The position numbers were made by a program, and so were the translations under genes. A DNA stretch of 64,000 nucleotides from Copromyces sp. CBS 386.78 (Eukaryota > Ascomycota > Sordariomycetes > Sordariales > Sordariaceae): NCBI GenBank assembly GCA_030685235.1, contig MU839099.1, positions 310,001-374,000 on the forward strand, written 5' to 3'. The notes under the pieces were generated by a model, which saw only the letters and a program-made list of their open reading frames with translations, was not told the origin of the DNA and made no database searches. Within the stretch, counting starts at the first letter, position 1. The number at the start of each line of letters is the position of its first letter. Below are positions 23,885 through 51,141 of the stretch, piece by piece.

Positions 23885-23889
23885 ATTAT

Positions 23890-31064: not shown

Positions 31065-31069
31065 ATTAT

Positions 31070-33000
31070 ATAGTATGCGGATTAGGCGGTTAGTATATAG
31101 GAAACGAATAGGAAAAGTATAATATTCTTTTAAGACTACGTTATCCCTAAGAGAAATAATCTAATTACGCTATTTAATAACGGTAATATTTCGAAAGTAA
31201 TTATTAATTTCGTAGGGTAATTAGTTAAACGATACTTTTTTACAATTATAATTTACTTTTATATTATTAGCGGATTCTAATAATAAAATAGTTTTACCTT
31301 TATATTTAATACGCTTATCCTATTACGAATCGCCTCCTTTATAGAACGGTTAGCTAATTATAGTATTTCGTAATTAGAGTTACAATCTTAATTATAATAT
31401 AACTCTCTTCGCTTACCTTCTTACTATTATTAATTTTTTTATTAACTATTTCGCTAGCCTTTTATATTTACTACTATATTTACCGCCGCGCCCGCTAATA
31501 CTTCCAAATATTTAACGATAATTAGTACTGGCCGTAAATTTATAACGAATTCGATACTATACGAATTTAAGGATAAACGCAATTGCGAGCGCAAAGTATA
31601 AAAAGAGGGTAAGGAATCCGCTAATTTATTATATAATAAATTAATTAAAATATAGGGGTATAACTTCGCTCGCGAATATAAGAATTATTATAAAGGGTAA
31701 GAATATTATTAGTATTATATTTTTCCTAATTAAAAATACTATTTTACCCTAATAATAAAGGATCTCGTTATTTAAACTAGTACTATTGCTACTAAACGGA
31801 CTATAGTTAACTAACTTCTACCCGAAATAACTTTATAGTAATTTAATTTATTTTAATAGTTATTTATCTCTTTCGCCGGCGCACTAATATTTAAATAGTT
31901 AAATAATTAGTAATTTTAGCCATTCGTACTATACGCTATCCCGGGTACGAAATATAGTGGTGGTATAAAAGGTTTTATACCTATACTTCAAGTCTTTAAC
32001 TTTAACTTCCAAAATAGTTACTAAATTAATAATAATGCGTATAGAGTTAACGGTAATAATAATAGCGTTAAAATACTCCCTACTCTACTTCCTATACCCG
32101 TATTTAACGAATATAAGGGTATAAATATAAGTACAATAAATATAGGACTATTAGAACCTACGTTACCTACTTTACTTACATTACCTAGCGGTATTAATAT
32201 TAGTACTAATATTACTTCTACCTTTCGCGCTAGCGATAACCGTTAACTTTCCTCCCTTCTACCCTTATTACTACTAAATTAACCGCTTAATACCTATATT
32301 ACCGACTTTATAAAGTAATTAATTTTTAAATTCGCGCCGAGAGCTAGTGAAAATAACGCATTAAGAGAAGCGCTATATAGCCTTAAAAATTCCTTTATAT
32401 CCGGGAAATTATTATTTTATAACGTATAAAACTTGCTGCGTTTATAGTATTTCGCCTATAGAATTAATAAAAGTATTTATATTATAATTAAAAAGGCTAT
32501 TAAAGATTATTTCTATTTCGAACGCAATTATATTTAGTAGTTATTATTACTACTACCGCGTAAAGCTCTAGCACCGCGTACGGCTCTAATACCGCAACCA
32601 CAATAGATCCCCCTCTAGACTATTAACCCTATAAAACTATTATAGCCGCAAAGTAAATATTTATTTATTATTATTATATATATTACTAACCGTTTATATT
32701 ACTAATAATTATATTCTTAAACTCCCTTTAGGATGTAAACCTCGTACCCGACCGCAATCCTCCCGCTTTCGACGACTATATTTATAGTAGTTTTATTTAA
32801 GACTATGTAAACGAGGAAACTAACCCCAATAATAGCCTACGTATAGACGACGACCCTACCACTAGCGAGGTAAATTCTATTTCTATTAATAATAATAACG
32901 ACGACGAAGATAATGAATTTTAAGAGGGGGATTATATATACGAAGGGAAGCGAGTTCTAAAGAGGGAGATTATATATATAGAGGGATTATTATATATAAT
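31070..33000 (+). pseudogene. Right part of the unrecognised element carrying the gypsy insertion
   Basis: A plus-strand coding relic can be followed in pieces from 31070 to a stop near 32923. It ends in an acidic tail (DDDPTTSEVNSI, then NNNNDDEDNEF). Before that, AYRINKSIYIIIKKAIKDY is open. Together with 22660-23884 it looks like one element interrupted by the gypsy insertion. I cannot name the family; a Crypton-like or other DNA element is possible. Confidence 0.45.
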
Positions 33001-33024
33001 AATATTATTTGAGGGATTTATAAT

Positions 33025-33100
33025 ATTTTTAATATTTTTAATACTTTTAATACTTTTAATACTTTTAATACTTTTAATACTTTTAATACTTTTAGTATTT
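33025..33100. repeat. 9-bp minisatellite (TTTTAATAC)n
   Basis: Roughly eight head-to-tail copies of a 9-bp unit, TTTTAATAC or TTTTAATAT, inside the A+T-rich island. Just before it (32932-33015) the motif GAGGGATTATATAT also recurs. Confidence 0.85.
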
Positions 33101-33439
33101 TAGGAGGTTTTTTCATTATTATTACTTTCTTTATATATTTATAGCATTTTCTTATATTTATATTCGTTTCTAGCTACGAATTACCTTTAATTTCAATAAT
33201 ATCTATTTCGCTATATTTACTATACAAACTAATATCCTATATTATTATATTCGTTGTCTTTAATTCGTATAGTTAATCCCTATATAGCGCATTGTAATCC
33301 TTTATTTCACTAGCCTCGTTAAACTCGTTAGAAGGTATATATACCTAGCGATAGTGCCCTTGTATAGTATTAATTCGTTACTCTATTTTCTACGTTGCCC
33401 CTTTAAAGAAGGCTTTAAATTCTCTTTCCTTTAATCGAT

Positions 33440-34000
33440 TACCGCTAGCGTACTAGTATTACCGCCTTATATATACTTTTATATCGTTAAAGTATACTTC
33501 GATAGGGTTGAAATTAAAGGAATATAGTAGTAAAAATTAGAATAGGATACTTTTATTATTATAAGCGACTTTAATAGAGGGATTTTTATATTACAATACG
33601 TTATCTATTATTAAAATATTGTAACGGTTGGGAAAAGGATTTATTTTAAGGAATACCTCTTCTTCGAACTATATAATAAACTTAACTATATTAATTACTC
33701 CTTTATAATATAATACGTCGATAAAGCTATTTATAATTAACATTAGTAGTAAATAGAACCGCTTACCCCTAGTTAGGACGCTATTTAACTATAGAAATAT
33801 ACCTTTTAGCGCCTATCCTATACAACGAATACCATCCCTTTTATTAATTCCAAATTTATTATAGAATACATATATTTCTATTAAAAACTTCGAAACCTTT
33901 TATAATTAATCGAATTTTAATAAATTACTACGCTAAAAAACTTTATAAACTATCCTCTTATTTTTCTATTTCGAAACTTTTAAATATTTTAATATAATTG
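33440..34000 (-). pseudogene. DDE transposase (Tc1/mariner / DDE_3 type), RIP-inactivated
   Basis: One minus-strand frame reads as a DDE superfamily endonuclease with stop codons at expected Trp positions: NKRDGIRCIG, then LNSVLTRGKRFYLLL, NSFIDVLYYKGVINIVKFI, FEEEVFLKINPFPNRYNIL, IIDNVL-stop-YKN, and LLLYSFNFNPIEVYFNDIK. The second Asp (in IIDN, family 'MDNASWHKN') and the final 'NPIE' Glu are still legible, while the usual PPYSPDFNP has become LLYSFNFNP. The start of the gene should lie to the right, up to about 34400, but is too decayed to read. Confidence 0.85.
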
Positions 34001-34917: not shown

Positions 34918-35568
34918 TCAATTCCTTCTCACATCTTGTTCAAACGGGTCGGCTGAGTAGCCGCGGCTCGTGAAGATGGACAGCTTGGCGTTCTTCGGCG
35001 CATGCATCGAGTTCTCGAGTCCCGTCTTTCTCTTCGGCAGCGCATTGGTGGTGTTGGCCAGGGCAGGACGGTGGAGTCTAGCAGCCGGGTTCAAGGTGAT
35101 GAGCCGGTTCTTGGGCGCCCACATGGAGTTTTCCATGCCGGTCTTTCTCTTTGACAGCGAATTGGCGGTGTCGGCGAGTGCGCCGCGGCTGGGCCCAGCG
35201 GCCGGGACGTAGTCGTCGTAGTAACCGGCCTGTCAACAAGATATGTTGGTGATTTCTGCGTGAAAGTTGAGGATCAAGTGATCAGGGGCACAAACCTTCT
35301 TCAAGGCCTCATACTCCTCCTCGCCTTCTCTGAACCAAGCTTTCACCTCCTCATCGGTCATACAGCTGGGCGAGTCCGGTGCGCGCGGGGCTTTGTAGCG
35401 GACTGTGAGGAGGGTCGGACCGGGGGCCGGACGGGTGATGGTGCGGGGCGCTTGGCGGGGAATGGGTGACGCCTTCATGCCCTGGTTCTGGAGATGCGAC
35501 TTGTAGGCAGCCGCGCTGCGGTACGCGTTCTTGTTGAACGGCTTGGTGTAAGTAGGGAAGTCGGACAT
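34918..35568 (-). CDS. SRP-A, small repeat-box protein (unknown family)
   Basis: Two minus-strand exons, 35568-35296 and 35229-34918, give 194 residues; the intron is GTTTGT...GACAG, phase 0. I do not recognise a known family. It starts MSDFPTYTKPFNKNAYRSAA, like SRP-B and SRP-C. A Pro/Arg-rich middle follows, then an acidic helix (EEVKAWFREGEEEYEALKK) that ends exactly at the intron. Exon 2 opens AGYYDDYVPAAG and carries two copies of the C-terminal box, GMENSMWAPKN and GLENSMHAPKN. No signal peptide or membrane segment is present; it is likely largely disordered. A TATA-like box (CCATAAATACC) lies about 125 bp upstream, followed by a GGAA repeat on the plus strand. Confidence 0.75.
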
Positions 35569-35647
35569 GGTTGCGAGTTTGCGATTGCGATTTGTGAAGT
35601 TGCGTTGGTTTATGTTGGAGTCAAGTGAAGTAGATTACAGTTTGTAA

Positions 35648-35690
35648 GGAAGGAAGGAAGGAAGGAAGGAAGGGAAGGATAAGGAAGGTA
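35648..35690. repeat. GGAA microsatellite in the SRP-A leader
   Basis: At least seven uninterrupted AAGG units on the plus strand (CCTT on the coding strand), placed between the TATA-like box and the SRP-A start codon. This would make a CT-rich leader or initiator region. Confidence 0.8.
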
Positions 35691-35697
35691 TTTATGG
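35687..35697 (-). promoter_or_regulatory. TATA-like box of SRP-A
   Basis: CCATAAATACC on the minus strand, about 120-130 bp before the ATG at 35568. The same spacing recurs in other SRP genes. Confidence 0.5.
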
Positions 35698-36160
35698 ACA
35701 AGGCAAGTGCTATTGAAAAAGTACGTACAGTACCTATTGAGAAGGCAAGTGCATATTGAGAGTTGAGATGGAAGGCAAGTAGTACCTTGTTGAGGAGGCT
35801 GGATCTATTGAGAAGGCGGGTGCCTACCTCTATGAAAGCGCAATAGGAGAGCAAGTGCAAGTGCTAGTGGGGACCAAGGCCCCATTGAGAAGACAACTAC
35901 CAATTGTGAAGGCAAATGCATACCGTATTGAGAGTTGAGATGGAAGACAAGTACTTGTTGAGGTGGCTGGTATCCATTCAGAACACGGCACCCATTGAGA
36001 GCACATCAGGAGGGCAAATGCAAGTGCTAGTGGGGACCAAGAACCTGTTGAGAGAGCAAGTGCATATTGAGAGTTGGGGCGGAAGGTATGGAAGTAACTG
36101 TTGAGCAGGCTGGTATCCTTTGAGAAGGCGGGTGCCCCCCGTGAACCACCAAAGACTTGC
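35690..36160. repeat. Degenerate minisatellite upstream of SRP-A
   Basis: Phrases recur several times with small changes: ATTGAGAAGGC, GGCAAGTGCATATTGAGAG, GTTGAGATGGAAG, GCAAGTGCTAGTGGGGACC and TTGTTGAGGAGGCTGG. Units of roughly 130-160 bp repeat about three times. Copies have drifted and none is long enough or similar enough to be a recent duplication. Confidence 0.75.
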
Positions 36161-36377
36161 TGCCCCAATCCAGGTCCTGAACAGACTTGACCCTCAGCAA
36201 CCAGCTCTGAGATGAAACCATGTCGCAGTATCGAATTCGAAAATATGGGCTTAGTACCTGATGCAGTCATTGGCACACATTGCGGCGGCGGTACTTACAC
36301 CAATCATGCCTCTGTGATCGGGGCTCCCTATAGCAACGATTTTACGAAGCGGTTGGGCGGGCTTGCGCAGGATGGCA

Positions 36378-36698
36378 CTACATCCATCCATCAGCGACAA
36401 ATCCCATGTCCTTGTTGGGTTGGGCCCTGATGTCTCGAAGTTGGGTCCGGACCTTGTCTAGGTTGTGGAAACCTGCATGCTCCGGGTACCCATTAACAAC
36501 GAGGGTCGAGTTGTTGTTTACCTTGGATTCCTGGGAGTAGGTTTGCGGGTCGTGGTACCAGTCCAGCGGCGGGTGCCATAGTGGCTGTAGTTGTGTCACC
36601 TCCGGCTTATCTGTTACGAAAGGGTGTTCGTCTTCGGCGGGATTCGTTAGGGTATATTGATCCCTGGCCCTCACGGCGTTGCTAGCCCGCTTTGGCAT
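36378..36698 (-). CDS. Possible small hypothetical protein
   Basis: An ATG-initiated open frame of 106 residues beginning MPKRASNAVRARDQY. It contains a Trp/Pro/His-rich stretch (LQPLWHPPLDWYHDPQTY). It has none of the SRP boxes and no TATA box at the usual distance. I do not recognise it; it could be a decayed fragment. Confidence 0.3.
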   Translation of the reverse strand: MPKRASNAVRARDQYTLTNPAEDEHPFVTDKPEVTQLQPLWHPPLDWYHDPQTYSQESKVNNNSTLVVNGYPEHAGFHNLDKVRTQLRDIRAQPNKDMGFVADGWM

Positions 36699-37744
36699 CC
36701 TGGTGTGGGCTTTACTGAGAGTTGGGTGTTTTCGGTTGGGATTTACACTGATGAGAGTTGTGCTTCTTGGGGTCGCTGCTGTACTTCGAAAAGAGTGGCT
36801 GGATTTTACTCTGATGAGAGTGGTGCATCACCCTTTCGCAAACAATCTGGAGTAAAGTTCAGAGACAGGAAATTATGGGAATATCGATACTATCGCTATT
36901 GCCACCACTGACCGCCCCATCCTCGTCCTTGGCTTCATCATCATCCTCATGACCAGCACCAGCGAGACCCATCTGATTCGCTTGTGACTGTGCTTCCTCG
37001 ACCACGCCGACACACACACTGACGCACGGGGGGGGGGATGCCACTCCTCCGAGTGATGACAACAGCAACCCGGATGAGCTCTATTGGTTCCGAGATCACT
37101 TCCCCTTTATTCCGGATCTTTGATAATGTCTTTGTATCACCTAATTCACCTTCGACATCATCCATCAGGATGAATGAGTCAACTGTGTCGACGAAGTCAT
37201 TCACAAGGGAAACCGTTCACAGTCTCTCCAACGTTCTGATTATCACCCCGATATTCGACGCCAATTGGTGCGTGACGCATTCCATGGTGGCTCCGAATCA
37301 AGCATGTTTAAACTCCGTTCACAAAGCCTTCCGCGAAACCCACGTGAACATTCCCAATTCTTCTGCCTTCGAAGCGACATCCAGGGGTCTGTTGAGAACA
37401 CAATAAAAGTGCAAGGGCGGGTGCAAGTGCGAGTAAAAGCGCAGGTGGGTACCGAGAGCGTCGCTCTTCCATCTGATTCTTGGAGGTGGGATGTCCATCA
37501 CCTGGCATTTATCAAAACTTCAGACGAGATTTACACGACATGTCAATAGTTTGATTATGGGGCATCACGGTCGGGGAAGCAAGTGCTCAGGAGTTAGAAG
37601 CAAGGTCATAATGAAAGCAACAGAAATATCAAGTTCACTCAGCAGCAAGCCGAACACTCGGAGTGTCCAGTCTGTCGCCATTAATTTACCGTCCTTTATT
37701 GCGTTCAGCCCAGACTCCAGCGAGGCCGATGGAATACTACCCGC

Positions 37745-37880
37745 GGTTGTTCTCCTCGTTCTCAATCAATAAATAGAGCTCTGTGAACTCCTTTCTCAGC
37801 ATCCTCTTCTTCCGGTTCCAGATGTGCTCGATGCGGTTGAGATCTGGACTGTGTAGTGGATGCTCTATGCGCAACAGGGG
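37745..37880 (-). pseudogene. C-terminal scrap of a Tc1/mariner-type transposase
   Basis: The minus strand reads EHPLHSPDLNRIEHIWNRKK, then RMLRKEFTELYLLIENEENN. This matches the end of DDE transposases (P-x-x-S-P-D-L-N-P-I-E-x-x-W). The region upstream does not continue the frame, so only a fragment remains. Its base composition is near normal, so it is less RIP-damaged than the copy at 33440-34000. Confidence 0.75.
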
Positions 37881-38755
37881 AGCCGGGCTTTAGTAACGTA
37901 GAGAGTGGTCGACACTACCAAGACGTTGCGGGCGTAAATACGGGCCGCCCACTCGTCCACGTGCCCGAATTTGCAGTCTCTTCTACCGTCTGGCTAGACT
38001 CTAGCGGATAGTCCGGGTTTCTTGGGCTACCTCCCACAGTTTCATGGCGCGTATACCAAATTGGTTGTATTCCAGTAAGTCGTGTAGGGCCGCCGGGGCT
38101 AAGCTGGTATCAACTGTAGTGGGGAATCGCTTGGGAGGGAGGACGAAGCGGTATTTCTTGTGTGATCCGTCGTGCTCCTTTTGCTTCTTCTTATTCGGCT
38201 TATACGGGATTAGCGAGAAACACCCGACTGCTTGTTCTTGGTTTTGGAGCATTGTGTTGTACACAGCAATGCCGCGGTGTGTCAAGGTCATCGAGTTGTC
38301 CCAGTGTTCATTCTTCAGGTAAAACAAATTGGAAAAGTGGATGCAGGTGCTCACGAGAATCAACTAAGTAAGCGCTGTAGCCGTGAGTTTCATATAGGAG
38401 CTTGAGTTCAAGTACAATGACGGTTGACACAAAGACAAGTTCTGATTTCTTTACAAGGGGCCGGAAGTCAACCGGCTATCAAACGTCTCCAAGTATCTAA
38501 TATTGACCCCCGACTTATGTGACAGCAGTAATACCTCGGATGGACGGTCTACCTTTGTGGAATGTTGCCCAGTATTACCACTCCGTGAATATCCGTGTCA
38601 CCCCTCGAACGTCTTTTTCATCTTCGGTGCCACATATCTAAACACTGATACAGTTCAACTTGTCGGTCAAAGCAGTCGTTTGAACGTTTTCGGAACTCCT
38701 TTCCACCCAGTCAGTCTCAGATCGTGCATTTCTTGGACCGTGGAATCTCTTACCA

Positions 38756-39522
38756 TCACTTCTTCTCGGGCTGGCCAGCCTCGGGTGCCTTCGGGGCATG
38801 CCTGGAGTTGGCCATACCCTTGACAGGTTTGCCGTTGGTATCAAACATCTGCCTGAACTTGGTGAAGTCAGGAGCACGACCAGCAGCTGGCACGTAGTCA
38901 TCGAACTCGCCCCTCTATAGAGAAAAACGTAGAGTTAGTAAATGAATGTTTGGAACCGATCATCGAATGCGACGGAATTACATACCTTCTTCGCCGCCTC
39001 ATAGTCGGCGTTGGCTTCGGCAAAGAACTGCTTAACGTAGGCGTCCTCCTTGGCTTGCTCCTCTGCGTAGGTAGTGTCCTTCGCGGTAGAGCGGTGTTGC
39101 TTCGAGGCGTTCGTCTTCTGGGCGACACGGGAATGGTTGATCTTGGTAGACTCGGTTTGCTGCTTGTTGGAATGTCCATGGGAGGCGTTGTGAGCGGCGT
39201 GGTTACGGTACGCCATGCGGTTGAATGACTTCTTGGGCTCGGAGTTCTGTGCCTTGGATTTTCCGTGCGAAGTATCGTTGGCGGGTTTGTTGCGGTACGC
39301 ATTCTTGTTGAATGCCTTGTCGGGCCCCGAGGGCTTCTCGTTGGACTGTCCGCGCGAGGCGTTGCAGGCGACTTGGCTGCGGTAGGTCGTTGCGTTGATC
39401 GATTTCGTGGGATCCGACGGTTTTTCGTTGGATTGACGACGCGACATGTGGGCATTGTACGCAGCTTGGCTGCGGTATGCCATCGGGTCGAAAGCCTTGC
39501 TGCGCTGGGGGAAATCGGCCAT
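38756..39522 (-). CDS. SRP-B, small repeat-box protein (unknown family)
   Basis: Two minus-strand exons, 39522-38986 and 38914-38756, give 231 residues; intron GTATGT...CTATAG, phase 0. The N-terminus MADFPQRSKAFDPMAYRSQA is followed by three more copies of the same motif about 28-30 residues apart (INATTYRSQ, FNKNAYRNK, FNRMAYRNH) separated by Ser/Lys/Asn-rich spacers. A helix (EDAYVKQFFAEANADYEAAK) ends at the intron. Exon 2 opens RGEFDDYVPAAGRAPDF and ends with GMANSRHAPKAPE and a Lys-rich tail. The protein is polar, with no signal peptide. TATA-like ACATAAAAGC lies about 113 bp upstream. Function unknown. Confidence 0.8.
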
Positions 39523-40224
39523 CTTGGAAAGTGCGATTGTGTTGGGGTGGGTTTCGGTGGGTTTTTGGTGGATGTTGGAGGATGATGTTGTGAGGAGGAA
39601 GGAGCGAAGCAGAGGAATGAGGGGGGACGGGCTTTTATGTCGAGAGACGACTGGAACTGAATAAACCTAGGAGAGTGAACAGCCAGACTGATCAGAAAAC
39701 CTTCAAGGTTGGTACGTGAACATTGTGGTTGATCCCCTTCGCTTGCAGCTGATGTTCGTTGCATAGTTTCTGTCACAACCAGGTCGGTGACTGGAAGCTA
39801 CAAAGTGAACAGTCTCCGGAAACCACTAAACCATGGTGAACCTTGACCCAATCAATCCAGTATGTCCAAAGGTTTTGTCCATCCCGTAAGTGCTAATGTA
39901 GCCTAGATAACTCGTTACGTCGATGATGTGCGAGTGTTCGTCATAATTTACAGCTCGACATCGCGTACCTAATCCTTGAAGTTTCCGAATAGTGTTCTCG
40001 ACGGTTAATCAACAGTGCCATGCACATGTGAAGAATGCGAGCAATTGGATTTGAGGACATAAGTGGCTCCGAGAGCAAGTTTCATGGAAAACATTGGACG
40101 CAAGTTCTAACAAGGGAATCATGCAAGGTGTTGAGAACTTCTCGAACTGTATGATGTTGGAAGGGAAAAGAAAGATATAGCCACGGTAAGCGGGGTCGTT
40201 GAATGGCCCGCAACGGTCGAGCCA
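39523..40224. other. Intergenic DNA, SRP-B promoter
   Basis: Holds the SRP-B leader and its TATA-like box (about 39632-39639 on the minus strand). No gene visible. Confidence 0.5.
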
Positions 40225-40293
40225 CTACCCTGTCTTGAGCATGTACTTGTAGTAGGTTGGGCCGCGGTAGGCGGTTGGGTTGAAGGGTGCCAT
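40225..40293 (-). CDS. SRP-X, 22-residue mini-member of the SRP family
   Basis: A very short frame, MAPFNPTAYRGPTYYKYMLK then TG and stop. It aligns with the first box of SRP-B and SRP-C (AF[DN]PMAYRSxxAYxxH). A TATA-like run (CATATATACTG) lies about 160 bp upstream, near 40452-40462, the spacing used by the family. It could be a complete micropeptide gene or the surviving 5' end of a deleted paralogue; I favour a remnant. Nothing like the helix or C-terminal box is found downstream. Confidence 0.4.
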   Translation of the reverse strand: MAPFNPTAYRGPTYYKYMLKTG

Positions 40294-41883
40294 GGCTAGG
40301 GCATTGTACTGAGGAATGTTGGACACTTTGTCAAGAGTTGTTGGTTTGCTGAAGTGTTGGTAAGGTAGGTAGTGTTTGGTAAAGAATGTTGTTGTGTGCT
40401 GGAACCAAGGCAGAAAGAATCGGTGGAATTGTGAGGCGAGGTGAGGTTTACAGTATATATGTATGTGCCTTGGAATTCAATCGCCGGTATTGTGAAGGGA
40501 TGCATGTAGAATTGTGTGAGGAGTAAATGCAATGCCTAAGGCCTCCGGAAGTCCGTTGCATGTTCCTCCTACATACACTGGCATGGTACTTACATGTAGG
40601 CAGGTACATGCTGCATACATTCACTCGATCTCATCAACTGCACTAGTGCCTTGGCCAGGTTGAAGAAGCTTCCCAACCTTCTGGTATCTTAACCTGGAAA
40701 GGTGAAGTACCAGTCTCCCCGAACTTGTTCGATATGGGCCTTGCCCATTCACTTCGGCATTCTCAGACACTCTGTCATCGCAAAAACTGCTGACGTAGAT
40801 CCGTATATCTTTTGTGTCAAGACTAAAAATACCATTCACCTGTGGCTAGTCGCGTAATAATGCCAGGCATCCTGCAGGTTCACCTTCAGATGCTCGATAG
40901 CCAAAACAACGCCGTAACGGCTACATGGTCGGGAAATGGGACAAGGACCTGATTACTGCACACATGAAGAATAAAAAGTAGGGGCTTTCTTAGGGATAGA
41001 AAGTGGATGTGGATGTGGAAGGTGTTCGAAGGGAGAGCATGATGTTTTCAAAAGGTGATAGAATGTAGTCTGGAAGGGTTTGGTTGCTCAAAGCTAAGGC
41101 GACTGAAAGAGACGGAGTTGACAGGATCGGTGTTCATTCCAAACCTTGGTGCACAGAACACTTGAAAACTTTCCGCGACGGAAGCCCATTCACTCTCGGT
41201 CAGATTGGTAAACCTTGAGAAGCTTGACAACGATGTCCTGATTCTTCCATCTTTACTGCCGGGGGTGCCGTCCGGTTTAAATACGAGGCGCGGTAGCTGT
41301 GGCGCTGAAGATATCACGGGGACAGAACCCGTGAATGAAATTCGGATCGACATGAAGACCGATGAGAAGGCACTGTGGCGGTAGTTGGGATGTTTCTTTT
41401 GGCAAATTGCAGAACAAGACACAAGATGTGGTGTTGAACCCACATGGTCCCGATGTTGGCAGAGGGCAAGAGAACGACTAACTTGATTGAGATTTCCCCG
41501 CAAAAACAGTCCAGAAGTCATCATCGACATTCTTCGATTTGAACACATGTTTGATACTCAAATGCCAACGAACAGCTTTTGGTAACTACCTATAGTGATC
41601 ATTTGCAACATTTGATTCCTCCCTAATCACTCATTCCTGCCTACCTTAATGTTCCTGGCGAAAACAGTGTTGACTCCACGATCAACAGACAAATAGCCGT
41701 AATACCTGTCCATCCCTGCTACTACAACCACGGAAGCAAAAAGCTAACAACAATGTTGAATCGCTAAAGTCCTCATGGGAATCTAGATAGAACATCTTGA
41801 TGCTGACTATTTCTTGTCGAAGGAGTTAGTTACAAGTCCCAGTCATCCTACTACTCCTGACAGTTGATGTACTTACTTCGGCA
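40294..41883. other. Gene-free interval between SRP-X and SRP-C
   Basis: About 1.6 kb with no convincing gene. The open frame 41048-41548 (-), 166 codons, is Ser/Arg-rich in a way typical of chance frames and shows no family box. Confidence 0.4.
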
Positions 41884-42753
41884 TCAGTTCCTACCCTGAG
41901 GCTTAGCAACAACCGAGTTGGGGGCCTTCTTCGGTGCATGCATTGAGTCCTTGAGTCCACCAGCCGTGGTGTTGGTACCATTGAACCGCTTGCGAAAGTC
42001 GCTAAAGTCGGGCTGGCGGCCACCAGCTGGGATGTAAGTGTCGAATCTTCCGGCCTGTATAATTTGCGCCATGTTAGTGAAGCTGTCCATAACTAAAGTA
42101 CCAATGTATGTGCACTGTGATAATAGCATAAAGTTACGTACCGCTTTGTCCCTCTCGTAATCAGCGTTCGCTTCGCGGTAAAAGTCACGAACATACTCGA
42201 CTAGCTCCTCCTCCGTCGGCAAGCGATACTCGTCCTTGTTGGTAGAAGTCTTCGCGTTCTGGGTGACCTGTCTGTTTTGTGGCTTCTGGAACGGCTCCTT
42301 CTTGAGAGCGTTGTTGGTTCCACGGAATGAGTTCTCAGCTTGGCCTCGATTGCCGTTCGCCCTGAAGGTGCTGTTGGACTTGTTGAAGTCGTTGTTGGCG
42401 CGGGGGTTGCGGTAGGCGTTCTTGTTGAAAGTGTTGCCGGGATTGTGAGTGTTGTTGCTGCTATGGGCTTGGCCGCGATGGCCGTTCAGGTTGACAGACA
42501 TGCCGGGCTTTTGAGCATCGTTGGCGACACGGACCTGGGCGCGATAGCCGTTGCGGTCAAAGGTTTTGACGGGCTTGGGGGCGTCGTTGTTGGAGGGGTT
42601 GCCGTGCTTGAGGGCGTCGTTGTTCAAGGGGTTGCCGGGCTTGGGAGCGCCGCTGTTGACTTGAGCGGAAGCTTTGATGTGGGCATCATATGCATCCTTG
42701 CTGCGATAAGCCATGGGGTTAAAGGCAGCGCTGCGCTTCGGAAAGTCTGACAT
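41884..42753 (-). CDS. SRP-C, small repeat-box protein (unknown family)
   Basis: Two minus-strand exons, 42753-42142 and 42054-41884, give 260 residues. I start at the ATG of MSDFPKRSAAFNPMAYRSKD because it matches the other SRPs; the open frame extends further upstream into the leader. The N-terminal half has about five spaced boxes (FNPMAYR, FDRNGYR, VNLNGHR, FNKNAYR, FRANGNR) in Asn/Ala/Pro-rich sequence. The helix EELVEYVRDFYREANADYER ends close to the intron (GTACGT...ATACAG, phase 0). Exon 2 opens AGRFDTYIPAGGRQPDF and ends near GLKDSMHAPKKAP. The 87-nt intron has no in-frame stop, so a retained form of 289 residues is possible. TATA-like box near 42885-42890, about 135 bp upstream. Confidence 0.8.
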   Translation of the reverse strand: MSDFPKRSAAFNPMAYRSKDAYDAHIKASAQVNSGAPKPGNPLNNDALKHGNPSNNDAPKPVKTFDRNGYRAQVRVANDAQKPGMSVNLNGHRGQAHSSNNTHNPGNTFNKNAYRNPRANNDFNKSNSTFRANGNRGQAENSFRGTNNALKKEPFQKPQNRQVTQNAKTSTNKDEYRLPTEEELVEYVRDFYREANADYERDKAVRNFMLLSQCTYIGTLVMDSFTNMAQIIQAGRFDTYIPAGGRQPDFSDFRKRFNGTNTTAGGLKDSMHAPKKAPNSVVAKPQGRN

Positions 42754-43872
42754 GTTGATAGTGTTGCGGTGTGAGGTGTGGTGTGTGGTGTGGGTTGTGT
42801 GCGTGGATGTTCTGATATTCGGTATGTCGAAAGTTGTGCAGAGGGAAAAACTGGAGGAGGGAAAATTGGAGGGGGAGGAGGATCTTATACTAGCAATTAA
42901 ATTCAAGAACCTGGGTTGATTAGAAGGCCTGTCCACTGCCAGTTGATTCCGAGAACCTGTAATGTTCAGGAAGTATATTTACCAACAGCTGAATTTGACA
43001 ACCTGTAATTATAAGCAACTCCTCTGTTCACCGACAGTCTTGATGTTCATTCACCTTGACATAGGATTGCGAACCTTCCGAGGCTTGGCAAGTTCCTGCC
43101 ATGTTATGGATATTGAACCTGGATATCTGTAAGAATTAGCTCCAGTGTTCAGAGCACACAGTCGGACAATGATGTCGAGGCCTATCGAACGGAGGTTAAC
43201 ATGGCCAAAGTCCCGTCACTCAATCATGTTCGTGGAGGTTCAGAGGACGGAGGATTGACAACATTTGGGGTGAAGGATACCAGCACGAGGACCGACAGTC
43301 TGATACCTGCTGCACCATCCACTAGGATTTTTTTTGCGCTTTCTTGCTTGTCGCAGGTGCTAAAACCCACGGTCTGGCTTAGCAAAGTAGGTACATTCGT
43401 AATTCTGCCACCGGAGAGCTTCCCCCGGGACCTCTACTGTAATGCTGATATTTCTGCTTGCTGTCCCGATTGATCTGGCTGATGGAGGTAAAGCTTTAGT
43501 TCGGACACTGTACAATTTTGTCCCATCTTTTTCGTAAGCGTCTGATATGATTCTGAGAATGGGGGAAAACAAAGCAGAATAATACGCAATGTAACATTTC
43601 GGGAGTTTTAGAAGTTGAGCATGATAGAATGGTAATAAAATAGTTGGATACAGTTATGGAAAACGTCAGGGCCACGCTATTTTGGAGGCTCCTATTTTGG
43701 ATGGTTCACAAGTGGGCAAGAACTGCTGCCAAGCACCAGGACATTGATAAAACAAAAAGATGATACCGTACATCGCACTAGAGCCTCAAACGCATTACTT
43801 TCGCAACAGAGAGCTTGTGCAAGGATGAGGAATAACCAGAGAAGTTTAGTAATAACTAATTAAAACATTCCC
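42754..43872. other. Intergenic DNA, SRP-C promoter and SRP-D 3' side
   Basis: Contains the SRP-C leader and TATA-like box (42885-42890). No other gene seen; the frame 43201-43473 (+) is not protein-like. Confidence 0.45.
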
Positions 43873-44296
43873 TTATGCTGAGCCGCCAACCTGCTCTGTG
43901 GTGGTCTTAGCATTGTCCTCCTGGCTCTTCGGGTTGTGACGCGAAGCTGCGAGGCCCTTGTAGCCGAGGGGCAGAGTGTTGACCATGGTGACACTTGGAG
44001 TGTTGTGATTAGCAGGTTGGCGCGAGAAGTTGGCGGCGCTGGTCACCTAAAACAACGTCACTAACACCGAGAATGATCTGGCTATTTCTGGGCAACCATA
44101 CCTGCTCTGTAGCCGTCTTGGGGGCAGGTTTATCCTCCTACTTCTTGCTGGAGACTTGCGGCGTGGTAGCAGCCTAGGACAAATGTTACTGACAGCAAAA
44201 GTATTTGGGTTCATTGCCCGACAATCAGATCTGCTTTGCAACCGCCTCAGGATTGGACTGTTGCTCTTTCTTGGGAGTTTGCGGTGCGCCAGCCAT
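43873..44296 (-). pseudogene. SRP-D, inactivated small repeat-box gene
   Basis: Three former exons can be placed: 44296-44231 (MAGAPQTPKKEQQ...), 44173-44102, and 44046-43873, which contains LPLGYKGLAASRHNPKSQ and ends in EQVGGSA. Two lesions break it. The expected splice donor after AAGCAG at 44231 reads ATCTGA instead of GTCTGA, so translation would run into an immediate TGA. In the second exon a TAG follows SSKK where CAG would fit. Both are C:G to T:A type changes. The second intron (GTATGG...TTTAG) still looks usable. The C-terminal box GLAASRHNPK ties it to the SRP family. TATA box CCGTATAAAACA lies about 123 bp upstream (44415-44424). Confidence 0.65.
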
Positions 44297-44414
44297 GTTG
44301 GAATACTGCTGAGACAACGTTTCTAATGTGAGGGGCTGCCTGGCTGATGTTTCCTGACTCGAGAGTCTTTGGGCAAGGTCGAAGAAAGTGGAAGGCAAAA
44401 GAATGGGAGAGGGA

Positions 44415-44424
44415 TGTTTTATAC
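44415..44424 (-). promoter_or_regulatory. TATA box of SRP-D
   Basis: GTATAAAACA on the minus strand, about 123 bp before the ATG at 44296. It remains intact although the gene is broken. Confidence 0.55.
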
Positions 44425-45792
44425 GGGAAGGCCGCGGCAAGAATGGACGGTTTTTGCTGAGCCGTTACCCTTCACTTGAGGAGTTTTCAAGGTGAATGCC
44501 CGCCGGCTAACCTTGGGCTATGAAGAGTAGGGACCACCAAGCAAGTTCCATCTCAAGCCTGCATCCAAGGTTTATCCGGCCAGGTCAACGGAGTTGGCAT
44601 TAACTGTCGCCAACATGGTGGTACAGAGAGAGGGCATGAGGGAAGGAAAAGCAGACATTGGTAAGGCGGGAAGCAAGGTCGATGTTGATGTCTAGCCGAA
44701 CTTGCGCGTTCTTTGGCCTCAGTCTCACGCTCGATCTACCTGGGACCATTCTCGTGCTTGAGCTCTTGTCACGAAGGAGCCGGACGCGGAGCCGGAACCG
44801 GCACTGGGGTTGGAAGTCGGGTTTCCGGGCCTCGATCCGCCCATGGACTGTCCCGCCGGCGCGCCTACCCTCGGCGTAGTTTCAGCGGTAAGATTAACGG
44901 TCGAAAGGCCTCGGAAGGGTGTCGCGGTTCGTCTTTTTTTTGGGTGTCGAAGAAGACATCGTCGAGCGTCGAGCGATGCGGCGGGAGCAGAGAAGGAAAA
45001 GATTGGATGAGAAGTTGAAAAGAGGGGTGGACAGACATTTCGGCAAGAGCGTGCAGGTGGGAAGGACGTTCTGTTGGACGTGCCAAGAGCATCAGCACCT
45101 CCAGTGAGTGTTGTTTCACTATCAGAATCCCACCCAAATTGGCGGCAATCCTGATAGGGCCGCATCTTATTCAAACAGCGGCCCACTTTCCAATTTGGAC
45201 ATGCAGGCAATGAGTGCAGGCAACAATCTCGCACCACCAACTTCAAGGAACCCAAAATTTAGGAGGAGAAAAAATCGACCGGTGTTTCCTACACTTTCGT
45301 TGCACCATACCATCGAGTGGCCGAAAGTGACCCTTGCTGGACGATTCCTATACCACAGAAACTGATGTAGGAGAGCTTGCCCGAGCCCCAGCAGACTACC
45401 AAAGCAACACACATCTGTGGTTGACTACAATAAAACGAGGGAGCAGATAAAGCAAAATCAGCGTTTTAAGCACCGCCAGGTACGAGTGGGCACACACCAC
45501 AAGCTAACTAGGTATTAATTCGTAAGACTGGCAAGGAAGACGCATCAATTCGGTTGTTACTACCCCGGCAACCTGATCTGCCATCCTTTCCCATAGCTGT
45601 GATGGCCCTGGTAGGTTCTCCTCAATTCCTCCCCGACTGTCCAAGATGTGCCCCCTTCTCCCTTGCTTGCGTCTCCGATCTCAAAGACTACAATGCAGTA
45701 GCAGCGACAAACGACGCTCAATTCTTCGGCTCCTCCTTGGCCCAGCGCCCAGTCTCTTACTGGCTTCAGGAAGCAGGCGGCTGCTCCGAGTC
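44425..45792. other. Gene-free interval between SRP-D and SRP-E
   Basis: About 1.4 kb. Overlapping open frames on both strands around 44700-45250 are G+C-rich chance frames without family boxes or known domains. Confidence 0.4.
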
Positions 45793-46478
45793 CTAGGTCC
45801 TCCTCGATGACACGCCAGCGAGAGCCCGCCAGCCCGCCAGCCCCAGGTTTTCCGCAGGGAGCGGATTCTCCATTTTAGCTCTGGGTATGTCGTGGTCAGC
45901 AGCCTAGTACGACTACTCCCTGACCTAATATTTGAGTTGGAAACGTTTCGTAGACACTGGGTGTTTTTTTTTTTGGTGGTTGACTGTACCTTCTCCTGGT
46001 TGGCCTTTGGCGACTCGGCGAAGAACTCCTTTACCATAGCATCCTCCTCGGCGGAAGCGCGGTACTTTCTGGCGTTCTTTGAGTGAAATGCTGCCTGGGC
46101 CCTCTGTTCCGGAGCAGGCAAATCCTTCACTTCCTCGTCCTTTGCAGTAGCATATCGAGAGCCCGCTAGGCCCAGGTTGCCCTCGGACAGTGGATTCTCC
46201 ATTTCCGCCTCGGCGTTTTCGTCACTGTCCTGGTCCGCAGCCTGGTAAAACTGCTCGTTGTCGTTGGACTAACCTCCGAGTAAGCAACAACCTCAAATAT
46301 CGTAGACACTGACGTGTTTTCCAAGAGACTGTACCTTCTTCTCCTTCGACTTCGGAGACTCGGCGAAGAATGCCTTCACCGCGGCATCCTCTTCCGGGGT
46401 AGCGTTGTACTTCTTGCGCTGGGTTGCCTTGCGTTTTCCTTTGTTGGCATAGGCTTTTCGGTTGATATTTGCAGCCAT
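45793..46478 (-). CDS. SRP-E, small repeat-box protein with a shifted C-terminus
   Basis: Three minus-strand exons, 46478-46335, 46268-45990 and 45903-45793, give 177 residues; both introns start GTACAG and are phase 0. The basic head (MAANINRKAYANKGKRKATQ) leads to the helix PEEDAAVKAFFAESPKSKEK at the first intron. Exon 2 has FYQAADQDSDEN, MENPLSEGNLGLAGSRYAT, and then a second copy of the helix (EEDAMVKEFFAESPKANQEK) at intron 2: an internal duplication. Exon 3 starts AADHDIPRAKMENPLP, but an 8-bp tandem duplication (CTGGCGGG twice) shifts the frame just before the expected G-S-R-W box, giving AGWRALAGVSSRRT and an early stop. The ATG at 46478 is preferred to that at 46568 because the TATA box lies at 46618-46627. 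Confidence 0.7.
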
Positions 46479-46617
46479 CTTGAGATGTTCCAGGTGTGCG
46501 TGCAAGGCAGCTTGACTTGGTATTGAGAGAGGGCGTGAACTGTTTGACGGCCTCGTGACTGGAGTCACTGTGCTCGGTGAGGTTGAGGGGAGAAAGCAAA
46601 GCGAGAGATCTGGCGCG

Positions 46618-46627
46618 CTTATATAGG
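46618..46627 (-). promoter_or_regulatory. TATA box of SRP-E
   Basis: CCTATATAAG on the minus strand, about 145 bp before the chosen ATG. It lies too close to the alternative ATG at 46568 to leave a normal leader. Confidence 0.6.
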
Positions 46628-46963
46628 GTACGAGAGAGGCTTGGAATACAAGTGGTTGTGATGTTTTACTGGGAATGTCAGTGGGGGCTGAAGCAGCATA
46701 GTATCAACAAATGTAAAAACGAAGAGTGGATTTTGTGCTCAAGTGAAAATGGCGAGCAACAAACATTGATTTCGTATGTCTATCAACCTTGCTCTACCTC
46801 CCGTCGAATGTTCTTTGATTAGATGTACCCAATTTCTTTCCATGTGTCCTCCACTCCTCCGCCATCCTTCTGCGTCCTTGATCATCTGCAGAATCTAGTA
46901 TATTCCCATCTGAAAATCCCATTTCATTTTGCTCGATCCTCCACCGCTGGTTTCATTTTGGCT

Positions 46964-47970
46964 TTACTTCTTGGGCGCGGTGGCCCATCGAGAAGAAGCT
47001 AGGCCCTTTGCTCCGGGGGGGAGGGGATTCTCCATCTTTGCACGGGGAGTCTCGTGGTCTGCTGATTGGAAGAATGATTTTTCACTTTCGTTATCGGCTT
47101 CAGCGTAGAAGACCCGGAATTCCTCGACCACTTTACGCTCCTCGGCAGTTTCACGGAGGCGGCGGTTCTTCTTCATATTGCTGTTGCCGTTCACGGCCTT
47201 CTTCTCCTCCGATTTGGGGGCCGTAGCCCAGCGGGAGGTGGCCAATCCTTTCGAAATAGGAGGGAGGGGAATATCGACTGCGGGCTTGGAGGTATCGTCG
47301 GCGGCTGGCTGGTATTGAGGGATAGCCCAGCGAGAGGCAGCCAATCCCTTTGCTCCGGGGGGGAGGGGATTCTCCATCTTTGCACGGGGAGTATCGTGGT
47401 CTGCTGATTGGAAGAATGATTTTTCAATTTCGTTATCGGCTTCAGCGTAGAAGACCCGGAATTCTTCGACCACTTTACGCTCCTCGGCAGTTTCACGGAG
47501 GCGGCGGTTCTTCTTCATATTACTATTGCCGTTCACGGCCTTCTTCTCCTCCGATTTGGGGGCCGTAGCCCAGCGGGAGGTGGCCAATCCTTTCGAAACA
47601 GGAGGGAGGGGAATATCGACTGCGGGCTTGGAGGTATCGTCGGCGGCTGGCTGGTGTTGAGGGATAGCCCAGCGAGAGGCAGCCAATCCCTTGGCGCCAG
47701 GGGGGAGGGGGTTTTCGACTTTGGCCTTGGGGACGTCCATCTGAGATAAGAGTCAGCAATACTTGAGGAACGTTTGCACCATGGGACTAGCTGTGATCGT
47801 ACCTTATTGTTATTATCGAGCTTAGAAAATTCGGCATAGCAGTCATGGAATTCCTTGAGAGCTGCTTGTTCTTCGGGAGACGAATAGTACTTCATCTTAG
47901 GGTTCGTGGGCTTTCTTCCCTTGGGCTTGTTGGCCTTGGGGTTGGTCTTTAGGTTGGTAGCGGGAGCCAT
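46964..47970 (-). CDS. SRP-F, small repeat-box protein with internal tandem duplication
   Basis: Two minus-strand exons, 47970-47803 and 47740-46964, give 314 residues; intron GTACGA...CTCAG, phase 0. A Lys/Pro/Asn-rich head leads to the helix PEEQAALKEFHDCYAEFSK near the intron. Exon 2 is a repeat protein: VENPLPPGAKGLAASRWAIP and DIPLPPVSKGLATSRWATAP, then a basic stretch (MKKNRRLRETAEER), the helix KVVEEFRVFYAEADNEIEKS, and SFFQSADHDTPRAK. This 114-residue module occurs twice and is followed by a final partial copy ending GLASSRWATAPKK. The repeats are nearly identical at the DNA level (342-bp period). No signal peptide, no membrane segment. Function unknown. Confidence 0.8.
47007..47690 (-). 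repeat. Two 342-bp tandem units inside SRP-F
   Basis: Units 47007-47348 and 47349-47690 run head to tail and differ at only a handful of bases. A shorter third copy begins beyond 47690. The period is a multiple of three, so the reading frame is kept. Confidence 0.85.
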
Positions 47971-49939
47971 TATAATAGTGTGTGTGTGATGACTGGTCAG
48001 ACTTTAAGAAAGCGTGAGAGGTCTTTGAGTGTTTTGATGATGGGGAAGAGGAAAAGATTGAAAAAAGATGGGCAAGGGAATGGAAGTTACTTATGGTAGA
48101 ATAGCAATTTGAGAGATAAAAAAAGCAATGCCGGAGATGTGAGAAATAAATTCAACAGACATCTGTGGTCCTGCGGCCTGAGTGCATTGCATTTTTGACT
48201 CATAAAATATCCAAGGCCACGTTTGTTCCTCCATTTCTTGCAGTGTTCGCGGTCCATGCATTGGCCTTGATGCTGTTGATAGTAAAAAAATGGTCTGCAT
48301 CTGCAGCCACAACAGTATAAACGAGAACTCTTGACTCCCGTCTCAAGCCTGGCTTAGGCTTACTGTCGGATGTTGGTCTTCAGGTTGTAAATGACCAATA
48401 CTTTGGACATTTGTGATTAAGACTGCCGCATACCACTACATAACATGAAGATCTTTGGTGTTTCGTGCAGCAAATGGAGTAATTTACTTTTGTGCCCCAC
48501 CGGTCGTCGCCGACCGCATTGCCACCCTTTGATGTCCGCTGCGCCATGTAAATCCCGGAGATAAGAGCATCGGGCCTTCTTTAGATACCTACCACTACCT
48601 TATGCAGGAAATGTCGAGCACCAACATAAAGCAGGAATTGCCTGTGATCACAAAAGTAGTGCGTGGTCGGTTCTTAAGTCACTGATTCAACTGGTAGAGC
48701 ATAATGAGCAAGAAGATTCTTGTGCGTCCGGAGATACAAAACTGTACTATTTTCTCGGACTCCGTTGATACCGCCGGCGAGATTCCTATGGCCGCTTACG
48801 CATGACTCGACGTCGTTGAAGAAGATCGGGAGATGAAGAAGTCAGCAACTGGTAGGAACTGGCCAAATGAACAAGTAATATTCGGGATGTATATGAAGAA
48901 TAAAGGAGTTGCTTCAAGGTATCTCCCCAGTCCGGTTGGTTTGAAGTTGGAATACGATGAGAGACACTCTCTCAAAATCGCTCGCAATTAGAAGAACACT
49001 TCCGGTGACTGCGGGCACAGTGACCATGCGCTCCTCCTCCATCACTCAGTCATGTCTGGAGGCTCGGAAAAAAATAATAAAAAAATGTGGTAAGTTATTC
49101 CGGGATCGCGGAGAGGTCATCACAAACCGGAAAAGCGGGGAGAACGAGATTCAGGATGTTGAGTGATGAAGTAACGATGCTCTTGGACCATGGATCGTGC
49201 GCATGATCGATTCAATGTGAAGAGGTCAGATGAAGCTCTTATATGCAGATAAATCTTGGTCGGAATGGTTAGAAGATCAAACATAGCTTCCATAATGTTG
49301 TCTGCCCTCCGCGGTGGCGGATACCAAAAGATGGTTTTCATGACAAAGGATGACGGGGAAACAATTGGATGCGCGATGCGTGAAACTGGGGAAACCAAGC
49401 AGAAAGTCCAACAGCAAATGCTTGACTAATAATAGATAGGGGTTGACTGGAAAGGGGAAGATGACGATATTGAAGGACCAAACAAGTAATGGTGGAACGA
49501 CCGTCGCTGTGACTTTTGATAAGGTATCTTTCTAGGCAGGGAATACTTTTTTTGGGAAATGACTCCGGGGTTTTGTGCAACAAAGATTCGAGGGGCGTGA
49601 TTGAGGACATGGCTCAAATAGCCCACGATGGTAGAAGTCATAGTGTCTATGATGAGAAGTGGTTCCGATACCGATTTGGCCCACGATCACCCCGACGCCT
49701 GGACCGCGTTCAGCAGCGAGGCCCACAGAAAGGAGCATAATAGCACTCACAATCAGGCTCACGATGAATGCGGCCGCTCAGATGGCACAAAGTCGACGAC
49801 GAAAGAGGTTTGATTGAAGACAAAAGGGCAAAAGCTACCCAAATGCACAAGTTGGAGGGACCTGGAGTGAAGCGAACTTTGATTGAAGAAGCGATAAAGA
49901 AGATGCATACTCCCAAACGCCAATGACGCCCCAAAGGTA
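47971..49939. other. Gene-free interval between SRP-F and SRP-G
   Basis: About 2 kb. A TG repeat occurs near 47977-47990. On the minus strand 49532-49762 opens with a hydrophobic run (MSLIVSAIMLLSVGLAAE) that might be a decayed membrane-protein fragment, but there is no supporting exon structure. Confidence 0.4.
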
Positions 49940-50159
49940 TCCTCTTTCCCAAACGAAAAACTCAAACTCTAGTCTAAGTCTAGTTGGTAGGATGCAATAG
50001 CCACATGCTGGCCTGCTAGCGACTCTTGCCGGGTCTTCCGTCCTCCGCGTAGAGTATTCTCCTTCCCAAACAAAACAAATTCAAATTGAAGTAGGTATAC
50101 AATGGAACAGCCACATGCTGGCCTGCTAGCGACTCTGGCCGGGTCTTCCATGCTCTTCA
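49940..50159. repeat. Two ~110-bp tandem units after SRP-G
   Basis: The 41-bp block starting AGCCACATGCTGGCCTGCTA at 49999 recurs at 50109 with a single substitution, and the preceding TTCCCAAAC...TTCAAA stretch also recurs. The offset is 110 bp. The second copy runs into the SRP-G stop codon at 50157. Confidence 0.85.
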
Positions 50160-50987
50160 GAGCTCTTCCTCCTCTTCCTCATCTTGCAACTCGGATTGAG
50201 GTTGAACTTGAGTCTGCGCGAGCAGCAACTGTGCCTTCGCGGCTTTGATGGCATCCTCGGATGCCTGCAGCATCTTCTGGGCGGCGAATTTGGCCGCCTC
50301 AGCCGCCGCGAGACTCTGTTCCGCCAGCAAAATGGCTCGGGTCTTGGTCTCGCTGCAGGTATTGATCGGGGCCTTGCTGCTTTGGGGGGGATGGGCCTCG
50401 ATGTCGTTCGTCTGGGTATTTTCATGATTGATTAGCGCTCAAACTTCAGAATATCAGATGTTGCTAAAACCCGTATTGGGGTTTATATTTACCTTGGGAG
50501 AAGATGTCTCAACCTTCATCATAGGCTTGGCTGCCTCGGCAGTGGCTCTTTCGGCCTCGGGCTTAGGGGTGTTCGCCGGAGTCGAAATGTTGTTGGCGGC
50601 CGTCGAAGTGTTGTTGGCCGGATTGTGCCTGGAACTACGCATGCCGGGGGGAATAACAAGTTCTGCCTTGGGAGCTGGAGAGTCGGCAGCCTCGGTGGGC
50701 TCGGAGAAGAAGGTGTTCTACAAAGCAGAACATTCAGGTCAGCGAAGGGCGTCACAAAAAAAAACAAGAAGTAGAAAAAAGAAGATGAAAAAAAAAGACT
50801 GGACTGATGGAAGGAAACATACCAAGGGCATCTTTTTGGCCTCTTCAAACCACTGGTCAACCTCTGCGTTGGTTATCTCGCCGGCGCAATGCTTCGTAGG
50901 GCGACGGTACTTGTCATCGCGCTTCTTGCGGCCGCCAGCATTAGCAGCGCCGTGCTTCTTGAATTTGATCTCGGTATTAGGAGACAT
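50157..50987 (-). CDS. SRP-G, small repeat-box protein with coiled-coil tail
   Basis: Three minus-strand exons, 50987-50823, 50717-50493 and 50411-50157, give 214 residues; donors GTATGT and GTAAAT, both phase 0. The head is basic (MSPNTEIKFKKHGAANAGGR). The short helix TNAEVDQWFEEAKKMPL ends at intron 1, as in the other SRPs. Exon 2 has VIPPGMRSSRHNPANN, the family box, in an Ala/Thr/Pro-rich stretch. Exon 3 is different from the rest of the family: a long Ala/Glu/Gln/Lys-rich helix (AEQSLAAAEAAKFAAQKMLQ, continuing to AKAQLLLAQTQ) likely to form a coiled coil, ending in a run of Glu. TATA box GCTATAAAAG lies about 148 bp upstream (51131-51141). Function unknown. Confidence 0.78.
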
Positions 50988-51130
50988 CGTAAATTGTTTG
51001 ATGTGGATTCAATGGTAAGTAATTGTGGAAGCTTGTGTGTGTCAAGACGTTTTGACTTGGCTGCTCACTGGTGTGTTGGTTGATGAAGAAAGGAGGAAAG
51101 GAAGAAGAGATGGGTTGGGAGGGTTGCAAT

Positions 51131-51141
51131 TCTTTTATAGC
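51131..51141 (-). promoter_or_regulatory. TATA box of SRP-G
   Basis: GCTATAAAAGA on the minus strand, about 148 bp before the ATG at 50987. Confidence 0.6.

Follow-up and report, generated by a model that had tools for sequence, protein, structure and literature searches.

We analyzed a 64,000-nucleotide stretch of contig MU839099.1 from Copromyces sp. CBS 386.78 (Sordariales, Sordariaceae), hereafter the window, for which an earlier note had proposed a minus-strand cluster of eight related units encoding small proteins. All eight were found, on the minus strand between 34918 and 50987: six genes (A, B, C, E, F and G), a remnant (D) and a mini-member (X). Three sequence boxes describe them, namely F[ND]xxAYR (AYR box), an acidic helix box with the consensus EExAAVxxFFAE, and GLxxSR (SR box, SRWA where so extended). 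The splice sites of the gene models were picked by eye; A, B, C, F and G have GT..AG introns, and their spliced frames are open over the lengths given below in amino acids (aa). Boxes were placed by motif and helix scans, and in A and B by repeat scans as well.

34918..35568, minus strand: gene A (SRP-A), 194 aa, intron 35295-35230 (our model); one AYR box, helix box ~35364-35296, SR boxes starting at 35139 and 35022
38756..39522, minus strand: gene B, 231 aa, intron 38985-38915 (our model and annotation); four AYR boxes, helix box ~39054-38986, SR box starting at 38818
40225..40293, minus strand: mini-member X, 22 aa, AYR box only (reading frame and repeat scan)
41884..42753, minus strand: gene C, 260 aa, intron 42141-42055 (our model); AYR boxes (two by eye), helix box ~42216-42142, SR box starting at 41958
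43873..44296, minus strand: remnant D, last exon with VTMVNTLPLGYKGLAASRHNPK (sequence reading and a profile match, E = 1.6e-6)
45793..46478, minus strand: gene E, 177 aa in our model, introns 46334-46269 and 45989-45904 (our model and annotation, P0008); helix boxes ~46400-46335 and ~46055-45990, SR box starting at 46172
46964..47970, minus strand: gene F, 314 aa, intron 47802-47741 (our model and annotation); three helix boxes, five SRWA boxes starting at 47689, 47590, 47347, 47248 and 47005
50157..50987, minus strand: gene G, 214 aa, introns 50822-50718 and 50492-50412 (our model); helix box ~50876-50823, SR box starting at 50645, Ala-rich C-terminal segment

The pattern G[LM]xxS[RM][HWY][AN] occurs 12 times in the six frames of the window, and all 12 matches lie inside the cluster. 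Dinucleotide shuffles of 34501-51500 (200 rounds) gave a mean of 0.015 matches and a maximum of 1. The earlier description of SR boxes of one pattern thus stands, but their supposed C-terminal position does not hold throughout: A has two such boxes 117 nt apart, F has five, and that of G lies at residue 80 of 214. The AYR box is common to A, B, C and X, as had been proposed, and corresponds to a 45-nt DNA repeat with seven copies (one each in A, X and C, four in B); described before as the N-terminal box of these units, it marks one subfamily. The earlier layout was also incomplete, since in every full member (A, B, C, E, F and G) the SR box is preceded by a helix box.

Indeed, each full member presents the same order of elements: an acidic helix box, exemplified by TPEEDAAVKAFFAES in E and TDEEVKAWFREG in A, then a modelled phase-0 intron, and then an SR box. 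D and X carry no helix box. All seven modelled introns that come after a helix box are in phase 0 (one each in A, B, C and F, two in E, and the first of G). Annotation reproduces exactly the intron of B and the first intron of E, and places the donor of F 15 nt later in the same phase. Protein B is QBC45DRAFT_462882 of the same strain (100% identity over 231 residues), and F is QBC45DRAFT_462896, five residues longer at the splice in the annotation. Gene E is annotated as QBC45DRAFT_391263, a shorter protein of 142 aa that diverges from our model after the second helix box and is without its third exon; the three modelled exons run open to the stop at 45793, and a nearer acceptor for the second intron leads into stops. 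A third SR box of E, near 45835, is out of frame, and the third module (our model, 46478-45793, minus strand) finishes with NLGLAGWRALAGVSSRRT in place of an SR box. The C-terminal end of Pseudoneurospora P0007 is near-identical to this ending, and the frame change in the third module seems to be common to both. The exon-like pieces upstream of D contain an internal stop and no splice donor, and D is a decayed remnant.

The units fall into two subfamilies. The first (A, B, C and X) carries AYR boxes, and the second (D, E and F) a longer [VM]xNPLPxGxKGLAxSR stretch ahead of or through the SR box; in G the SR box has diverged. Within-set BLASTP, run with short words on 14 sequences with filters off and thus giving optimistic E-values, related B to C (2.8e-35), A to B (1.2e-8), E to F (2.0e-20) and the last exon of D to F (6.7e-9), and joined the subfamilies through the helix (B-E, 58% over 24 columns, E = 4.8e-4). 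Comparison of B-type and E/F-type profiles gave E = 7.7e-4 but a probability of 25%, which is supportive, not decisive. Helix, intron position and profile comparison together suggest that the two subfamilies are related. In the same BLASTP, the C-terminal segment of G matches P0024 (Neurospora sp. IMI 360204; E = 2.7e-17) and its helix box matches P0004 (75% over 12 residues, E = 1.0e-4); G is tied to the family because P0024 combines an E-like SRWA module with a G-like C-terminal segment, and because of this helix match. Similarity within the subfamilies, together with the common box order and intron position, supports the local amplification of one family put forward earlier. We define here an SRWA-repeat family by G[LM]xxS[RM][HWYF], with a [VM]xNPLPxG-type stretch ahead of it in D, E and F, and the array belongs to it; the array is also of a Sordariaceae type, defined by helix box, phase-0 intron and SR box, with the boxes in 6/6 members and the phase in 7/7 modelled introns.

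Relatives were sought with both types of unit. Searches with B matched five proteins including itself, out of 122 candidates, from Copromyces, Pseudoneurospora amorphoporcata, Sordaria macrospora, Neurospora tetraspora and Sordaria brevicollis. The four relatives are 44-78% identical to B over 53-100% of the length, values that only suggest the fast evolution claimed in the earlier note. For N. crassa, N. intermedia and N. tetrasperma no B-type match was listed, though all three have F-type proteins, and this gap could reflect either loss or missing annotation. In Pseudoneurospora, the end of the B protein P0002 (DVGFAEGFVNGV) resembles 37308-37508 (minus strand), which lies ~1.4 kb downstream of B in the window, and its helix box is partly out of frame; perhaps a local deletion fused B to the downstream stretch in that fungus.

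The E/F profile reached at least 43 proteins at E ≤ 10 (7990 scored), including F- and E-type relatives in Neurospora, Pseudoneurospora and Sordaria. Among other Sordariales, it matched Cercophora (3.8e-18), Rhypophila (5.5e-17), Diplogelasinospora (1.2e-9), Lasiosphaeria (9.1e-6), Triangularia (7.5e-4) and, weakly, Trichocladium (0.087). We regard the spread of SRWA relatives within Sordariales as firmly supported by these matches, and the earlier idea that the family may be genus-specific does not hold. A second profile (SRWA), built from 15 proteins of the E/F list, matched at least 61 proteins at E ≤ 1 (7996 scored); its seeds P0037, P0044, P0045 and P0048 (Diaporthe type) and P0039 (Trichocladium) had scored only 0.06 to 6.9 with the E/F profile, and were admitted also on a visible MENP...KGLxSSRWA stretch. 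It reached further Diaporthe rows, Apiosordaria (4.8e-10), Neonectria (4.4e-10), Nemania (3.6e-6), Bombardia (1.9e-5), Penicillium salamii (4e-4) and Chaetomium (0.78). Nemania and Neonectria lie outside Sordariales (orders looked up), as Diaporthe and Penicillium presumably do. Given these weak seed rows, the case for spread beyond Sordariales comes down to a short box found through chained searching. When 143 distinct SRWA units from 60 non-Sordariaceae proteins were made into a profile and compared to the window, F (2.9e-45) and D (1.6e-6) were recovered, which speaks for spread and not for independent discovery, since the source proteins had been found with window-derived profiles.

The helix box precedes an SR box in 20 of 24 Sordariaceae-type proteins (18/20 named, with three from the window itself, and 2/4 unnamed) versus none of 60 others, a contrast inflated by the fact that the Sordariaceae-type set was partly chosen by the helix. 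Of the misses, P0002 and P0042 are without an SR box, and P0005 and P0012 have a helix outside the pattern. Any helix box was found in 22/24 Sordariaceae-type proteins; shuffled proteins gave 1.1 on average and 5 at most. Here the helix box is seen to be confined to Sordariaceae-type proteins. Of the 84 proteins, 79 bear the motif, and in 44 of these the last SR box ends at most three residues from the C-terminus, where uniform placement would give 4.3. As separate observations, three SRWA proteins, P0078 and P0083 (Nemania) and P0029 (Diplogelasinospora), also display an F-[ST]-W-A-D-D stretch, and P0078 has a helix-like WEEFDREVKQYGLKTLK directly ahead of SRWA, perhaps an independent pairing of helix and SRWA.

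Relatives with neighbouring accession numbers occur in Rhypophila sp. PSN 637 (V8F33_014116 to 014118), Diaporthe citri (INS49_011478, 011479), Nemania (GGR51DRAFT_573259, 573260, the second at E = 0.19), Neurospora sp. IMI 360204 (N0V85_002652, 002653) and N. tetraspora (B0H65DRAFT_545027, 545028). This numbering, from which adjacency was deduced, suggests tandem pairs or triplets of relatives in these five fungi.

Two further features bear on how the array may have grown next to a region of repeat-induced point mutation (RIP).

47004..47692, minus strand: tandem module duplication of 342 bp inside F (limits from mismatch positions)
23001..34000, no strand assigned: RIP-mutated AT-rich block (GC 0.22-0.33; composite RIP index 0.91 to 1.30 per kilobase)

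The composite RIP index is transitional (0.06) in 34001-35000, which includes the end of gene A, and negative throughout 35001-51000; the cluster thus adjoins RIP heterochromatin, in agreement with the earlier proposal. In F, 300-nt copies that are 96% identical are spaced by 342 nt, a lag also recovered in a second scan. According to PMC2621366, repeat pairs longer than 400 bp are targets of RIP, and a 275-bp repeat with RIP-like changes is known in another fungus. Since the longest stretch with at least 95% identity at lag 342 measures 394 bp, the F duplication lies just under the RIP limit. CpA/TpA-type changes make up 5 of the 11 mismatches listed and 4 of the 7 that fall between 47692 and 47346, which makes light RIP of the module pair possible and excludes heavy RIP. 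Other repeats border the units: a 54-nt direct repeat, 91% identical, lies directly downstream of gene G (49992-50045 and 50102-50155), and diverged direct repeats of 74 and 77 nt lie upstream of gene A (35729-36113).

A strict TATA element is located at -170 to -50 of the ATG in five of the eight units (C, D, E, G and X; TATATACT at -166 in X), versus 4.8% of random cluster positions and 3.3% elsewhere (P = 1.3e-5, an optimistic value, as the interval was picked after viewing the upstream sequences). Relaxed elements were seen in A (CATAAATA at -128) and B (-117), and none in F. No 8- to 10-mer common to the 600-bp upstream regions of the units exceeded the cut-off.

Domain searches agreed with the earlier statement that no named family has this layout, for the proteins scanned against Pfam, NCBIfam and PDB. 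No scanned protein exceeded any Pfam or NCBIfam cut-off shown: none of the six window proteins or ten relatives passed a Pfam-A gathering cut-off, and 17 E/F-type relatives (P0024 being common with the ten) gave a best E-value of 0.0031, with cut-offs shown for the first only. Sequence searches of PDB with F, a 31-residue peptide and the SRWA profile returned 0 matches. Precomputed Pfam accessions exist for three distant relatives (PF10795 for P0050; PF07262 for P0077 and P0080), but a rescan of P0077 gave no family above the cut-off and did not bear out PF07262. Ada3, Sld5, DUF3106 and other Pfam names, each hitting one or two members at E = 0.003 or worse, were read as chance. A KH-like C-terminal domain in P0075 (Neonectria, SRWA repeats) was likewise rejected: Pfam gave no KH, and six weak PDB matches (E 0.089 to 0.76) were not significant.

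AlphaFold models are of low confidence. For B, the mean predicted local distance difference test (pLDDT) value is 49.6, and the best blocks (65, 78 and 72) lie in a helix at 147-180 over the helix box; for P0017 (mean 63.7), the only helix, 28-39, is the helix box. Disorder and helix are thus predicted properties. In the helix box, acidic residues followed by [VL]xx[FW][FYH] may resemble several known helix ligands, such as PCNA-binding or activation-domain peptides. No signal peptide was recognized by eye in the array proteins.

We consider the chances about even that this locus is a tandem array for small, largely disordered, multivalent adaptors with two docking boxes. The GLxxSRWA-type box would dock a partner conserved among these moulds, the acidic amphipathic helix would dock a second partner, and repeated modules would raise avidity. 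The array would have grown by gene duplication followed by divergence, and also through the copying of modules no longer than roughly the size at which RIP sets in. This proposal starts from the box order, modelled intron position, repeat structure and spread in Sordariales observed above, from which we infer protein binding by the boxes, the adaptor role and the mode of growth. Because the SRWA box recurs in other moulds, in proteins not yet characterised, it could serve as a docking tag. A wider version, which we find doubtful, would have one conserved hub across Pezizomycotina that reads GLxxSRWA as a docking motif not described before, with lineages writing their own disordered adaptor arrays; Sordariaceae would have added a helix coupling the hub to a new partner, and the copying of pieces that do not exceed the RIP length limit would sustain growth.

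A number of results weigh against the adaptor proposal. For the array proteins we came across no binding partner, no expression record and no phenotype, and the annotated Copromyces proteins among the matches listed are B, E and F, with no other cluster unit. The 143-unit profile matched the out-of-frame third box of E at 0.035, and E itself at only 0.12; A was at noise (E = 3, amid unrelated frames at 1 to 7), and B, C and G were not among its matches in the window. The protein rows in the counts above include many close relatives and are not independent, and the BLASTP values and the profile comparison between subfamilies carry the reservations already given. Low AlphaFold confidence may stem from shallow alignments (5 and 18 sequences), and in P0017 the residues ahead of the SR box (51-70) reach 75 and 72 as block averages, with no regular structure, so that this protein need not be all disordered.

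Composition bears on two other explanations. Grand average of hydropathy (GRAVY) values of the six full members range from -0.85 to -1.41, being below -1 for B, C, E and F, and each has 0-2 Cys. Together with low pLDDT, this would fit stress-protection proteins of the hydrophilin or late embryogenesis abundant (LEA) type, whose boxes would be a by-product of repeat growth. We regard this as unlikely: glycine amounts to 4.6% in A, 3.9% in B, 6.9% in C, 4.0% in E, 3.5% in F and 2.3% in G, exceeding in only one of six members the 6% of the hydrophilin criterion, and bulk protectants would need no short box kept among families and often C-terminal. Basic patches precede the helix boxes of E (KGKRKATQRKK), G (GGRKKRDDKYRR) and F (KKNRRLRE), and isoelectric points (pI) are at least 9.5 for A, B, C and F. 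Patches of this kind next to an acidic helix could mark proteins associated with nucleic acids or chromatin, but overall neither E (pI 6.8) nor G (pI 5.9) is basic, and no RNA- or DNA-binding domain reached the Pfam cut-off shown in the six window proteins or the relatives scanned; we judge this improbable.

That the locus consists mostly of decaying sequence, with B, E and F as its only real genes, is in line with the broken D, the 22 aa of X and the three Copromyces proteins listed. A, C and G, however, have open frames whose GT..AG introns sit where the family has them, and a strict TATA is present in C and G, which makes such decay quite improbable. Very improbable is a genetic-conflict or self-recognition array (selfish or allorecognition) diversifying under selection, for which the tandem layout, the patchy B-type (five species listed, not N. 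crassa) and the altered B of Pseudoneurospora could speak, but window proteins have no Pfam family above the cut-off, and absence from a match list may be an annotation gap.

The array matters because filamentous-fungal orphan genes mostly come without a functional handle, and a compact box kept among several families makes function testable; one box could name a partner for a whole set of orphan proteins. In addition, the array is a natural example of a gene growing under RIP, via module duplication near the RIP length limit.

Between A and B, a 41-aa open stretch (37740-37862, minus strand) is a transposase relic with a sub-threshold match to PF13358 DDE_3 (E = 0.0005; 20.4 bits versus 28.6), presumably Tc1/mariner-like. 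A short N run at ~9545-9556 (10 N in the window), within a low-complexity GC-rich stretch, is an assembly gap. Around the array, conserved genes encode the SIS and GATase domains of an aminotransferase, a proteasomal ATPase, a major facilitator superfamily (MFS) transporter and a metallo-beta-lactamase fold protein, and give a weak VWA match just below the cut-off; the reading frames 54545-55468 and 56021-57001, which have no Pfam match, were taken for a transcription factor. In N. crassa, NCU07366 is an aminotransferase (in parts of PMC7533531), NCU07375 the MFS phosphate transporter pho-7 (in parts of PMC12506109), and NCU07374 is listed under transcription factors (in a portion of PMC5940138). 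These assignments suggest that the array is syntenic with NCU07367-NCU07374, and that the transporter of the window would, by domain and position, be pho-7.

Literature searches with literal motif strings yielded, by title, no paper on a fungal protein family, and two core strings were absent from the papers listed; disorder, tandem repeats and Sordariomycetes in combination gave, by title, no match on such fungi. None of the main texts searched mentions a gene number from NCU07367 to NCU07373, one mentions NCU07374, and the main text of PMC10684091 contains no NCU0736x or NCU0737x number. The motif and architecture were thus not found in print, and comparisons are with systems alike in part. 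Gene C resembles FAM195/MCRIP (PF14799) over its helix box, at a sub-threshold E-value of 0.019 (15.8 bits versus a cut-off of 25), but the other five window proteins and the 17 E/F-type relatives have no match, and this candidate was rejected. Hydrophilins and LEA-like proteins are also small, hydrophilic and predicted to be disordered, whereas five of the six members here have too little glycine for that class, and the boxes are conserved. The Neurospora lineage-specific genes of PMC10684091 are, in the sections concerned, likewise unannotated, clustered and partly derived from duplications, but were required to have no match outside Neurospora, and the array family has relatives in other genera. 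A further trait of that class is grouping with HET-domain genes close to telomeres; this array has conserved genes on its flanks. Known in kind are the tandem orphan paralogues of N. crassa, of which excerpts of PMC2684829 report 82 pairs; they are tandem, unannotated and lineage-restricted in a RIP genome, as is this array. Compared to the pairs in those excerpts, the array comprises eight units, shares its motif with other Sordariales, and holds a 342-bp duplication of ~96% identity within one gene.

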